From positions 248,001 through 312,000 of the forward strand of contig NZ_JACHDN010000001.1 in NCBI RefSeq assembly GCF_014201095.1: a stretch of 64,000 nucleotides of DNA. The letters are read 5' to 3'. Made by a program: the position numbers and the translations under genes. How positions within the stretch are numbered: the first letter of the stretch is position 1; each line of letters opens with the position of its first letter. Positions 36,778 through 40,490 of this stretch are shown one piece after another. The notes under the pieces were generated by a model, which was given only the letters and a program-made list of their open reading frames with translations, ran no database searches and was not told the origin of the DNA. This DNA comes from Cellulomonas hominis (lineage in GTDB: Bacteria; Actinomycetota; Actinomycetes; Actinomycetales; Cellulomonadaceae).

Positions 36778-37275
36778 ATGGCGGGAGCGGTGCGGCGCGG
36801 GCTGCGGGCGGTGGCGCGCGCACTGAGCGGACGCCCGGCCGCGGGGGCGCCGAGCGACCCGGTCCCCCGGCGCACCCCCGCTCCCGGCGACCACACCGGA
36901 CCGTGGACCGCGTCCTACTCCCCCGCCCGCGACGGCCGCCCGGACCCCGGCGAGGTCGTGTGGACCTGGGTCCCCTACGAGGACGACCCCGCGCGCGGCA
37001 AGGACCGGCCGGTGCTCGTGGTCGGGCGCGACGACCCCTGGCTGCTCGCCCTCATGCTGACCAGCAAGGACCACGACCGCGACGCCGCGGACGAGGCCCG
37101 GCACGGCCGCCGGTGGCTCGACGTCGGGGCGGGCGCCTGGGACGCGCAGCGCCGGCCGAGCGAGGTCCGCCTGGACCGGGTGCTGCGGATCGACCCCGCG
37201 CAGGTGCGCCGCGAGGGCGCCGTCCTGGACCGCGCGCTGTTCGACCGCGTCGTCCGCGAGGCCGCCGCCTGGTAG
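36778..37275 (+). CDS. PemK/MazF-like toxin family protein, no antitoxin visible
   Basis: 165 residues. After a basic leader (MAGAVRRGLRAVARALSG) comes the core GEVVWTWVPYEDDPARGKDR, PVLVVGRDDPWLLALMLTSK, then RVLRIDPAQVRREGAVL, which fits the PemK/MazF endoribonuclease fold (SH3-like start GEVVW, RPVLVV). The usual short antitoxin gene is absent up- or downstream. Family members of this size are widespread in Actinobacteria and may have lost toxicity. Its stop overlaps a candidate rpsT promoter. Confidence 0.7.
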   Translation: MAGAVRRGLRAVARALSGRPAAGAPSDPVPRRTPAPGDHTGPWTASYSPARDGRPDPGEVVWTWVPYEDDPARGKDRPVLVVGRDDPWLLALMLTSKDHDRDAADEARHGRRWLDVGAGAWDAQRRPSEVRLDRVLRIDPAQVRREGAVLDRALFDRVVREAAAW

Positions 37276-37928: not shown

Positions 37929-39260
37929 TCAGTCCTGCGCCACCGCGCTCCACGCCTCCCACAGCACCGCGGGGACCGCGGGCCGGAAGCCTGCCTCGCG
38001 CAGCGCCCTGTCGAACGCCTGCGCGGCCCCGGTGACGTCGCCGTGCCCGAGGAACCGGTCGCCGAGCTCGCGCCAGACCGCCGCCGACTGCCGGGACGCC
38101 GACATCATGCCGAGCATGTCCGCGGCCCAGCGGTACGCCCGCGAGGCCGCCGGGACGTCGCCGTGCGCGTGGAGCGCGTCGCCGAGCGCGAGCTGCGCGG
38201 CGCTGCTCTCGAGCCGGGGCTGGTCGCCGAGCCGCTCGAGCGCGGCGCGCGCGAAGCTCTCGGCCGCGGCTGGGTCCCCCTGCATGAGGTGCGCCCGGGA
38301 CCGCTCGACGTCGACGCGCGCGAGCTCCACCTCGGAGCCGGACACCGCGAGCTCCGGCGCCGCGCGCTCGAGCTGCTCGAGCGCCATCGCCGGCTCGGCC
38401 GGGTCGGAGCGCAGCAGCAGCCACGCGTAGTTCAGCCGCAGGCGCGGGATGTCGCGGCTGACCTCGCCCTCGCCGAGCAGCGCCAGCGCGCGCTCGGTGT
38501 AGCGCTTGGCCAGGCCGTAGTCGTGCCGCTGCTCCGCGACGAGCGCCGCGTTCCAGTACACCGACCCGCGGCCGCGCGGCGTGCCGAGCGACTCGGCCTG
38601 CCGGATGAGGTCCGCGGCGCGGTGCGTCGCGTAGAGCAGGTCGCCACGCTCGACGTACGCCCACAGCGTCGTCGAGCCCAGGCGCAGGTGCTCGTCCGTG
38701 CCGGTCAGGCCGGCGTCCTCCAGCTCCACGAGCTGGCGGTCGCCCACCTCGATCGCACGGCCGAGGTCGCCGGACTCCACGTAGGACGCGACGAGCGCGG
38801 TGGCCGCCGCGGCGGCGTCGAGGTGGTGCCCCTCGGCGCGCGCCTGGGACAGGAGCGGCTCGAGGACGCCGACGGCGGACTCGAGGTCGCCGAGCATCTC
38901 GTACGCCTGCGCGAGGGCGAGCCGGGAGTCGACGCGGACCTGGCGGGTCACCGACTCGAGGTCGAGGGCGAGGATGCGGTCGCGGGCCGACGTCGCCTCG
39001 CCGGACACCAGGTCCAGGCGGGCGTAGTCGAGCGCGAGCTTGGCGCGGGCCTCGGCGGGCCCCTCGTCGCCGTGCTTGAGATACTCGACCGTGGAGCCCA
39101 GGCGCTCGGCGATGATGCCGAGCGCGGCGTCGGTCGGCTCGCGCCGGCCGGACTCGATGAGCGAGATGTAGCTGGGCGAGAGCGCGTCACCGGCGAGGGC
39201 CGTCTGGGAGAGCCCAGCGGCCAACCGCGCCTGGCGGACGCGGTCAGCAATGGTCGTCAT
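37929..39260 (-). CDS. Helix-turn-helix (XRE) regulator with TPR-like peptide-binding C-terminus
   Basis: 443 residues. Residues 1-60 are a Cro/C1-type HTH: ADRVRQARLAAGLSQTALAG, then SPSYISLIESGRREPTDAAL. The remaining ~370 residues are all-helical with a ~34-36-residue period of TPR type (for example ALAQAYEMLGDLESAVGVLE, AALVAEQRHDYGLAKRYTER, ALGDALHAHGDVPAASRAYR, GDRFLGHGDVTGAAQAFDRA). HTH plus TPR is the architecture of RRNPP receptors (Rap, NprR, PlcR, Rgg) that bind secreted peptides. A secreted-peptide gene lies 131 bases upstream. The ATG is seven bases after TACAGT within a palindrome, implying autoregulation. Function as a peptide receptor is inference. Confidence 0.85.
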   Translation of the reverse strand: MTTIADRVRQARLAAGLSQTALAGDALSPSYISLIESGRREPTDAALGIIAERLGSTVEYLKHGDEGPAEARAKLALDYARLDLVSGEATSARDRILALDLESVTRQVRVDSRLALAQAYEMLGDLESAVGVLEPLLSQARAEGHHLDAAAAATALVASYVESGDLGRAIEVGDRQLVELEDAGLTGTDEHLRLGSTTLWAYVERGDLLYATHRAADLIRQAESLGTPRGRGSVYWNAALVAEQRHDYGLAKRYTERALALLGEGEVSRDIPRLRLNYAWLLLRSDPAEPAMALEQLERAAPELAVSGSEVELARVDVERSRAHLMQGDPAAAESFARAALERLGDQPRLESSAAQLALGDALHAHGDVPAASRAYRWAADMLGMMSASRQSAAVWRELGDRFLGHGDVTGAAQAFDRALREAGFRPAVPAVLWEAWSAVAQD

Positions 39261-39264
39261 GGGT

Positions 39265-39281
39265 GTCACTGTACCTATGAC
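39265..39281 (-). promoter_or_regulatory. GTCA-N9-TGAC palindrome over the -10 of the XRE-TPR gene
   Basis: On the minus strand GTCATAGGTACAGTGAC. The TACAGT inside (39268-39273) ends seven bases before the ATG, so the site would control a leaderless transcript. One of three such palindromes in this locus. Confidence 0.6.
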
Positions 39282-39338
39282 GACCTGCCGCGGCGAGCGG
39301 GTCACCCGTCCGCCAGCACCCCGCAGGCACAGCTCCGA

Positions 39339-39371
39339 CTCGCCCCGCACACCGAGAGCCAGCGGGGCGAG
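39339..39371 (-). terminator. Hairpin between peptide gene and XRE-TPR gene (attenuator candidate)
   Basis: CTCGCCCCGC (39339-39348) pairs perfectly with GCGGGGCGAG (39362-39371) around a 13-base loop. It begins 21 bases after the peptide stop on the minus strand. It may end most peptide transcripts, with some read-through into the regulator. Confidence 0.65.
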
Positions 39372-39391
39372 CCGGGAGACGCCGAAGGGGT

Positions 39392-39529
39392 TCAGACCGC
39401 GATCCGGCAGCAGCCGGTGGCGCCGCTGTCGATCGTGATGCCGCCGGCGGCGTTGGCAGCACCGGAGGCACCGAGCGTGAGGGTGAGGGCGAGGGCGGCG
39501 GTCGCGAGGGCCTTCAGGGAGGTGCGCAT
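39392..39529 (-). CDS. 45-residue secreted peptide precursor (candidate signal peptide of the XRE-TPR system)
   Basis: The ATG at 39529 has AGGAG (39536-39540) six bases upstream and a TGA at 39392. The product starts MRTSLKALATAALALTLTLG (basic n-region, long Ala/Leu/Thr hydrophobic core), then ASGAANA, a Sec signal-peptidase site after ANA (residue 27), leaving an 18-residue mature peptide AGGITIDSGATGCCRIAV. Two adjacent Cys precede the hydrophobic end RIAV. It is encoded just before and in the same direction as the HTH-TPR regulator, like Phr/PapR/NprX-type precursors relative to their receptors. I do not recognise the peptide from any described system. It is too short for usual gene callers. 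That it is a pheromone is inference. Confidence 0.7.
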   Translation of the reverse strand: MRTSLKALATAALALTLTLGASGAANAAGGITIDSGATGCCRIAV

Positions 39530-39561
39530 GGATGTCTCCTGTCACAAAGGGTTGACTCTCT

Positions 39562-39578
39562 GTCACGTCGATCATGAC
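39562..39578 (-). promoter_or_regulatory. GTCA-N9-TGAC palindrome in the peptide gene promoter
   Basis: Minus strand GTCATGATCGACGTGAC. A CATGAT hexamer (39571-39576) within it could be the -10, giving a leader of about 35 bases to the peptide ATG. Same spacing as the sites at 39265 and 39726. Confidence 0.55.
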
Positions 39579-39725
39579 TCATCAGGCGGCGCCCGCACCA
39601 CCTCCTGAGGGGTTTCGCAGCAGTTCCGCCCGTTCGGGTGAATTGTCTGCGCTGGTCACGCGCCGTGTCGCAGTATCACCCCCGGTGAGAGAAGTCCAGG
39701 GATGTCATGCGCCGAGGTCTGTGGT

Positions 39726-39742
39726 GTCATAGATGTCATGAC
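39726..39742 (+). promoter_or_regulatory. GTCA-N9-TGAC palindrome at the start of the EAL gene
   Basis: Plus strand GTCATAGATGTCATGAC, sharing GTCATAG and TGAC with the regulator's own site. It overlaps the ATG at 39738. A direct repeat GATGTCATG occurs at 39701-39709 and 39732-39740. Confidence 0.55.
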
Positions 39743-40490
39743 CAGGGGACAGCGCGACGCGGAGCGGCGGCTCGCCGCCGAGATCGACTCGTCGATCCCG
39801 GACGTGCTGCGCCGCGAGTGGGACCGGCACGTCGCCCGCGAGCAGGCGGTCGTCGCACGCCAGGGGATCTTCTCCCCGCGCCTGCACCCCTTCGGCTACG
39901 AGCTCGGCTTCCGGGCGCCCGGGTCGACGGGGGTCGACGCGGCCGGCTGGACGGAGCTGCAGCACGAGCGCGCCACCAGCGCGGTCCTGCGCGCGACGTT
40001 CGGCCGCGCGGACGTCGACGAGGTCGGGCACGGCCGCTGGCTGTTCGTGCGGTGCCCGCGGTCGTACCTGGTCGGGGACCTGCACCTGCCCGCCCGCCCG
40101 GACCGCCTCGTCATCGAGATCGCCGGCGGCACCCGCATCGACGGCGACGTGCTGCGCGGCGTCCGGCGGCTCCGCGAGCAGGGCTTCCGGATCGCCCTGG
40201 CCGGGTTCGTCTCGCGCGCCGACCAGCGCGCGCTGCTCCCGCAGGCCGACTTCGTCAAGATCGACGCCCGGGACCTCGACGTCGAGGGCGAGCCCGTCGT
40301 CGACCTGGCGCGGTCCCACGGCGCGCTGCTGGTCGCCGAGTTCGTCGAGTCGTCCGCCGAGCTGCGCGCCGGCCGCCGCCTGGGCTTCGACCTGTACCAG
40401 GGGTACCTGCTGGAGCGGAGCCTGCTGCTGGACCGCTCGTCGGCGCCGCTGCTCGGCCCCGACCACGACTCGATCGGCCGCTCGCTCTAG
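39738..40490 (+). CDS. EAL-domain protein (YuxH-like, no HDOD domain)
   Basis: 250 residues from ATG 39738; an in-frame ATG at 39702 would add 12 residues and has a weak GAGAAG upstream, so the start is uncertain. EAL-fold segments: FSPRLHPFGYELGFRAPG (in place of ExLxR), RLVIEIAGGTRIDGDVLRG, FVKIDARDLDVEG (K-D pair), LLVAEFVESSAELRAGRRLG and FDLYQGYLLER. The wording resembles YuxH/CdgR-type EAL-HDOD proteins, where the EAL part often binds cyclic-di-GMP without cleaving it; the HDOD half is absent. About 80 N-terminal residues precede the core. It is divergent from the peptide-regulator genes and overlaps the next gene's stop by 4 bases. Confidence 0.8.
   Translation: MTRGQRDAERRLAAEIDSSIPDVLRREWDRHVAREQAVVARQGIFSPRLHPFGYELGFRAPGSTGVDAAGWTELQHERATSAVLRATFGRADVDEVGHGRWLFVRCPRSYLVGDLHLPARPDRLVIEIAGGTRIDGDVLRGVRRLREQGFRIALAGFVSRADQRALLPQADFVKIDARDLDVEGEPVVDLARSHGALLVAEFVESSAELRAGRRLGFDLYQGYLLERSLLLDRSSAPLLGPDHDSIGRSL

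Follow-up and report, generated by a model that had tools for sequence, protein, structure and literature searches.

Introduction

Peptide signalling through receptors that combine a helix-turn-helix (HTH) domain with tetratricopeptide repeats (TPR) is established in Firmicutes. Rap proteins are not known to carry an HTH and act on response regulators. The actinobacterial XRE/DUF397 pairs (WhiJ/BldB-like) consist of a regulator whose C-terminus is not known to be TPR and a partner that is not known to be a secreted peptide. Here we analyzed a 64-kb stretch of Cellulomonas hominis DNA (the window; coordinates count from its first letter), in which a small gene for a putatively secreted peptide adjoins an HTH-TPR regulator. 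An earlier note on this DNA had read the gene pair as a candidate RRNPP-like signalling system.

As far as the available excerpts of the two large RRNPP surveys indicate, both covered Firmicutes and one also viruses (PMC10075063, PMC9765709), and one of them describes actinobacterial signals as typically enzyme-made small molecules. Among the papers listed by full-text literature searches, none describes a peptide-receptor system of this kind in Actinobacteria, judged by title and abstract opening, with preprints and most subscription journals outside this coverage. The papers listed for the peptide motif were unrelated by title.

Results

Peptide gene and its conservation

The peptide open reading frame (ORF) has 45 codons with an ATG start and translates to MRTSLKALATAALALTLTLGASGAANAAGGITIDSGATGCCRIAV (Table 1). 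The N-terminus is basic, the core behind it is hydrophobic, A-N-A forms a plausible cleavage site, and the C-terminus reads SGATGCCRIAV. Sec-type signals were called by our own hydropathy rule and by eye; cleavage after ANA, likewise read by eye, would leave 18 residues. The AGGAG site lies 6 nucleotides (nt) upstream of the peptide ATG, and 131 nt separate the peptide stop from the regulator ATG. The ORF with its AGGAG site, Sec-like predicted signal and 18-residue tail, and its position directly upstream of the HTH-TPR regulator on the same strand, were found as the earlier note had described them.

Table 1. Features of the peptide-regulator locus in the window
Feature	Position	Strand	Basis or remark
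HTH (XRE)-TPR regulator, 443 amino acids (aa), proposed peptide receptor	37929..39260	-	Pfam, AlphaFold model, structure comparison
Third palindrome copy, 2 mismatches	39264..39282	+	4-22 nt upstream of regulator ATG
Predicted secreted prepeptide, 45 aa	39392..39529	-	Sec-type signal at about residues 1-27, predicted mature tail AGGITIDSGATGCCRIAV
Ribosome-binding site AGGAG of peptide ORF	39536..39540	-	inside recurrent TGACAGGAG
Second palindrome copy, 2 mismatches	39561..39579	+	32-50 nt upstream of peptide ATG
Operator-like palindrome TGTCATAGATGTCATGACC, 1 mismatch to TGTCAT-N7-ATGACA	39725..39743	+	covers EAL start codon
Single-domain EAL protein, probable target gene	39738..40490	+	Pfam; start taken as the ATG inside the palindrome

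The regulator was searched for in 58 genomes, 36 of which belong to the same genus with the window's own genome counted in. Orthologues were detected in 28 of the 36 (58-100% identity) and in none of the other 8. In all 28 loci, an ORF on the same strand upstream of the regulator has a signal-like start and a C-terminal GCC signature, and the distance from peptide stop to regulator start ranges from 82 to 364 nt. The conserved peptide ORF upstream of orthologous regulators, whose absence the earlier note would have taken as a refutation, is present throughout, as is the adjacent small propeptide gene, Sec-type by prediction, that characterizes RRNPPA systems. Residues M1, G36, G39, C40 and C41 are invariant in an alignment of 26 orthologous peptides. 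The pooled ratio of non-synonymous to synonymous differences (pN/pS) was 0.35 over pairs of the seven closest loci (L001-L007) and 0.32 for loci L016, L017, L018 and L023. In the signal part of L001-L007, pN was 0.072 and pS 0.315.

A peptide profile search matched 116 protein clusters; the organism names listed were all Cellulomonas, and the products were hypothetical except for one Spy/CpxP-type label. The window peptide matched no Pfam family at E 1 and gave one weak match in NCBIfam, to the CpxP family (13.9 bits, cut-off 148). Seven peptides from different clades matched no Pfam family at E 0.1, and all their NCBIfam matches fell below the cut-offs, the best being WGxxGxxG (E 1.4e-4, 22.4 bits, cut-off 35).

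An automatic secreted-CC rule was defined by a start codon, a Shine-Dalgarno-like word, a length of 35-110 aa, a hydrophobic core and CC in the last 8 residues, with K or R present and acidic residues absent before the end of the hydrophobic core. The peptide ORF was its sole match in the window. Among 107 loci (L077-L183), the rule gave 60 matches near regulators (within 600 nt, 129 kb in all) and 1 match in the 335 kb at greater distance, while the 148 kb of regulator sequence had none; 55 of the 107 loci had a match; many of these loci come from related genomes, so the matches are not independent. A chance ORF was rejected on the 28/28 conservation, the pN/pS values and this near/far control.

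Regulator

The regulator exceeded the Pfam cut-offs for HTH_3 (E 1.4e-10) and TPR (TPR_MalT, E 3.1e-13), and the TPR likeness of its C-terminus that the earlier note had predicted is thereby borne out. Among 50 aligned family members, HTH_3 was matched by all 50 and TPR_12 by 48. An AlphaFold model built from an alignment of 50 sequences is all helical (predicted local distance difference test 92.0, predicted template modelling score 0.82), and residues 67-427 of the model superpose on TPR superhelices. An N-terminal HTH followed by a C-terminal TPR superhelix is the arrangement of RRNPPA receptors. As to sequence descent from a named RRNPPA subfamily (Rap, Rgg, NprR, PlcR, PrgX or AimR), PlcR was matched by the regulator profile (E 1.9e-11 over profile positions 1-189), with designed and eukaryotic TPR proteins equal or better. 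No RRNPP name occurs among the 16 Pfam families that the regulator matched. Since the structure matches are mainly to generic TPR proteins, the fold alone assigns no family.

Mobile elements were covered through a phage and a plasmid collection, and six match regions from the two were inspected. The phage collection (50,697 records) gave a single match to the window's regulator at E 1e-8, a partial one. Regulator matches at E 1e-15 occurred in 16 of 72,556 plasmid records, 14 of them Streptomyces. The phage match (L268) is a partial HTH-TPR homologue with 38.5% identity near the end of an unannotated faecal 'Bacteriophage sp.' contig, MT836207.1, and a scan beside this gene found no secreted-type ORF.

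Palindromes as candidate operators

At up to 2 mismatches, TGTCAT-N7-ATGACA occurs at three places in the window and nowhere else in it: upstream of the regulator, upstream of the peptide and over the EAL ATG. The expected number was 0.2, and three were reached in none of 100 dinucleotide shuffles. The site over the EAL start was seen in 25 of the 28 orthologous loci. Of the sequence of these loci, the 19.7 kb that surround or precede the peptides contained 48 palindrome matches, and the remaining 99 kb contained none. Furthermore, TGACA/TGTCA was enriched upstream of the 28 peptides (90 occurrences versus 7.8 in mononucleotide shuffles). Exact palindrome copies were present in 30 of 60 genus genomes, as a single copy in 28 of those 30; when 19 exact sites in 18 of these genomes were checked, 18 lay within 1 kb of the regulator.

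All divergent intergenic regions of 18 loci from family f38 contain CATGACA, GTCATGA and ATGACAG on either strand, which appear as CTGTCATGACA in the six regions inspected, and the palindrome half-site appears to be conserved across families. The distribution of the palindromes fits direct regulator binding and autoregulation, without being proof of either.

In the window's genome, the best site (39725) is unique at 1 mismatch, and 11 places were found at up to 2 mismatches, 3 at the locus and 8 scattered, against 3 for a reversed control pattern. A wider regulon was considered and rejected, as these numbers indicate no clear further targets. Two separate observations were made outside the window. 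A pair of TGTCAA-N7-TTGACA palindromes spaced 28 bp apart at G000:C1:97658-97704 is perhaps the operator of another regulator. A 2-mismatch palindrome at G000:C1:3841552-3841570 lies about 1.5 kb from an SBP_bac_5 (oligopeptide-binding type) match (3838924-3840048) and may be there by chance.

Divergent EAL gene and neighbouring genes

An EAL homologue is divergent from the peptide in all 28 orthologous loci. The window's protein matches Pfam EAL at E 9.9e-14, covering profile positions 113-235 of 236, and an alternative in-frame ATG lies at 39702. The motifs were read by eye in 13 of the 28 rows, the window's included, in an alignment of homologues only. None of the 13 has the DD pair in the catalytic loop, which reads LAGF, LPGF, VPAF and similar instead. 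The glutamate of the EAL motif is kept as YEL in 4 rows, the window's among them, and replaced by Q (YQ) in 9. VKID or variants and the QG motif are retained. The divergent EAL protein is probably non-catalytic, and an active cyclic-di-GMP phosphodiesterase was considered as the function of the target and is thought unlikely because the DD pair is missing. The earlier note had named the EAL gene as a possible target linked to cyclic-di-GMP; the first part looks likely, given the operator-like palindrome over the start codon, and the link to cyclic-di-GMP turnover is weak.

Among the neighbouring genes, the Pfam comparison covered the EAL gene and a PemK-like gene. The latter (36778-37275, plus strand; Pfam E 5.3e-9) encodes a PemK/MazF-like toxin domain protein and lies just upstream of an apparent ribosomal protein S20 gene.

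Paralogous and distant regulators

Twelve genus genomes contain a second, paralogous regulator of about 40% identity. All 12 of the loci fetched (L031-L043 minus L040, which belongs to another family) carry a different secreted-type peptide downstream, with PCCK plus 1-8 further residues, and five of these loci have two or three copies of it in tandem. In wider searches, regulators were found in 30 genomes out of 248 from the order (E 1e-25) and in 76 out of 296 from the class (E 1e-20), two genome sets that overlap.

Distant regulators in many actinobacterial families adjoin secreted-type peptides, most commonly in a divergent arrangement. These peptides end in ..PGMCC or ..FCC/YCC in family f38, often in ..WCC in families f32, f45 and f54, and in CCTKG or GCC in family f15. 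The peptides beside Streptomyces regulators end in ..IPLCC or ..VPLCC, and several of them escape the automatic rule. In family f6, precursors contain 2-4 repeats of xGNWPDPx; named loci that share these repeats are from Arthrobacter, Pseudarthrobacter and Paenarthrobacter. Such secreted-type precursors, in which xGNWPDPx (or GNWPN) is repeated two to four times in tandem, lie divergent from an HTH-TPR gene at L044:4149-4386 and in other Micrococcaceae (L077, L080, L112-L114, L117, L245, L247-L257 and L259). In the 8-10-Mb genomes of family f37 (L173-L177, L179-L183), scans around the regulators showed no such peptide motif. By conservation pattern, the presumed signal residues lie at the propeptide C-terminus or in repeats and differ by receptor clade.

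The frequency of pairing was counted for 207 distinct regulators from L001-L045 and L077-L263, after removal of duplicates and of matches starting beyond profile position 10. A motif-class peptide was found within 620 nt of 144 of them (121 CC, 21 WP and 2 NTG), all three classes having been defined after examples had been seen. The proportion with a peptide was 63/70 at regulator profile scores of 400 or more, 72/99 at 250-400, 6/18 at 150-250 and 3/20 at 80-150. Relaxed inspection of the 34 misses scoring 250 or more gave a matching peptide, chosen by eye, in 13 (L029, L088, L137, L207, L209, L210 at about 0.9 kb, L212, L213, L218, L220, L222, L223 and L261).

On a tree of 68 regulators with one peptide taken for each, the four relative positions (upstream, downstream, divergent, convergent) need 11 changes, against a shuffled mean of 33.3; 11 is somewhat too high, because a few loci have a peptide flanked by two regulators that entered the count twice, once for each. 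The pair has therefore remained linked through repeated rearrangement. The 8-mer repeats of 19 Micrococcaceae precursors were identical in 37/42 pairs within precursors and in 114/1086 pairs between precursors. This concerted change suggests that selection acts on the short unit as such.

Further arrangements were observed beside these regulators. Six f6 loci (L123, L126, L127, L132-L134) contain a second TPR protein type, in which the profile match starts after the HTH part, with divergent secreted-type peptides whose tails are WWPN/WWPH/NWPG/YWPF-like. A 58-aa divergent secreted-type ORF with three TVGGSWPT copies lies beside an HTH-TPR gene in family f17 (L128). Four f38 loci (L091, L097, L098, L101) have, besides the divergent ..CC peptide, a second secreted-type peptide (..DGGSDFCC or similar) convergent downstream of the regulator, and one receptor may thus have two signals. 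On a linear plasmid of Streptomyces goshikiensis (L264:6986-9093), an HTH-TPR gene is followed by two annotated hypothetical small proteins ending in ..DIPLCC and ..VNNTGSSFDPREKM, and this trio adjoins a BTAD-domain (SARP-like) regulator and a cytochrome P450.

Discussion

We consider it quite probable that the gene pair is a peptide-receptor signalling module working like RRNPP systems. The RRNPP-like interpretation of the earlier note gains support from paralogous and distant regulators, each of which appears to be paired with a secreted peptide of its own, although the gene order varies, and, judged from sequence comparison, the pair is more widespread than that note proposed. The gene pair, its conservation, the pairing in different clades and the palindromes are observed, and we infer translation, export, trimming, import and binding of the peptide as well as the sign of regulation. 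The prepeptide would leave the cell through Sec, and trimming would yield a short C-terminal fragment with the GCC. An oligopeptide permease (Opp-type importer) could possibly take this fragment up again, given the 8 SBP_bac_5 proteins in the window's genome. The peptide would then sit in the groove of the TPR superhelix and alter the grip of the regulator on the three palindromes. We suppose that the free regulator represses the EAL gene, because the best palindrome covers the start codon of that gene; the peptide would lift this repression, and expression of both peptide and regulator would be subject to feedback. Without its DD pair, the EAL protein may serve in binding or as a scaffold and not as a phosphodiesterase.

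Several observations weigh against this explanation. Under the secreted-CC rule, 52 of the 107 loci have no match, and the automatic rule assigned no peptide to 63 of the 207 regulators. In L001-L007, selective constraint on the predicted mature tail (pN 0.137, pS 0.209) is weaker than on the signal part. The TPR likeness is generic: designed TPR proteins fit the regulator profile far better than PlcR does, and eukaryotic APPBP2 and LGN score as high or higher in structure comparison. The peptide-side palindrome is found in only 10 of the 28 loci and the regulator-side one in only 12, and locus L028 has no palindrome at 2 mismatches. Whether the regulator is a repressor or an activator is a guess. 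Finally, the 443-aa receptor contains no cysteine that could account for the conserved CC, and the Micrococcaceae repeats are also without cysteine; it is therefore unlikely that the entire superfamily shares one chemistry based on metal or disulfide.

The peptide might instead be a secreted effector, antimicrobial or metal/thiol-active, that is controlled by the HTH-TPR protein while the TPR senses something else. Metal binding or a vicinal disulfide would be possible for CC, and adjacency and shared palindromes are compatible with simple co-regulation. However, the tail is short, at about 14-20 residues, and each regulator clade has a different motif in it, the Micrococcaceae precursors carry tandem copies of one cysteine-free 8-mer that vary in concert, and no modification, immunity or export gene was recognised beside the pair by inspection of the ORF list only. 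We regard an effector as unlikely. About as improbable is a peptide that acts on the producing cell only, as self-sensing or an export readout, and not as a population signal. The window's genome has one receptor of the HTH-TPR type, and 'pump-probe' behaviour is reported for a Bacillus system (PMC7055314). Such self-sensing overlaps mechanistically with the signalling module proposed here, and the present results do not separate it from cell-cell signalling.

That the small ORF is untranslated, and conserved because of a regulatory RNA or promoter region, seems very improbable. It is a short ORF in high-GC DNA, and conserved words are found in its upstream region as well, but synonymous changes outnumber non-synonymous ones in L001-L007, 116 protein clusters match the peptide profile, and relocated copies retain a signal-like start and a CC tail.

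Taken more broadly, the balance tilts somewhat towards a superfamily of intracellular receptors for peptide pheromones that is Actinomycetota's own and widespread there. Its dedicated signals would be secreted, mostly with Cys-Cys at or near the end and, in Micrococcaceae, from precursors with NWPDP tandem repeats, and it would include Streptomyces regulators beside antibiotic-type clusters. If true, this superfamily may supply some of the long-sought actinobacterial peptide signals imported by oligopeptide permeases. Such peptide communication has hardly been described in actinobacteria so far, and the predictable peptides of Cellulomonas, Arthrobacter, Streptomyces and others make it testable with cheap synthetic peptides. 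The module may also offer inducers for silent biosynthetic clusters, as the S. goshikiensis regulator beside a BTAD-domain regulator and a P450 illustrates.

Among known systems, the XRE/DUF397 pairs resemble the locus in having an XRE regulator beside a small protein in actinobacteria, and are set apart in that neither a secreted-peptide partner nor a TPR C-terminus is known for them. Concerning phage AimR-AimP (arbitrium), the window's regulator has the one partial match at E 1e-8 in phage records. Rap-Phr differs in that Rap is without an HTH, whereas the window's regulator has one. Closest among the Firmicutes RRNPP(A) systems are PlcR-PapR and NprR-NprX, which come from a different host phylum; in Actinomycetota, the peptides have CC at or near their end or carry NWPDP-type repeats, the orientation of the pair is variable, the likely target at the window's locus is an EAL gene without the DD pair, and peptide binding is putative. 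The likeness to PlcR-PapR and NprR-NprX consists of an HTH-then-TPR receptor, with PlcR recovered by profile and NprR and Rap by comparison of the predicted structure, an adjacent small propeptide gene of the Sec type, and a conserved propeptide part at the C-terminus.
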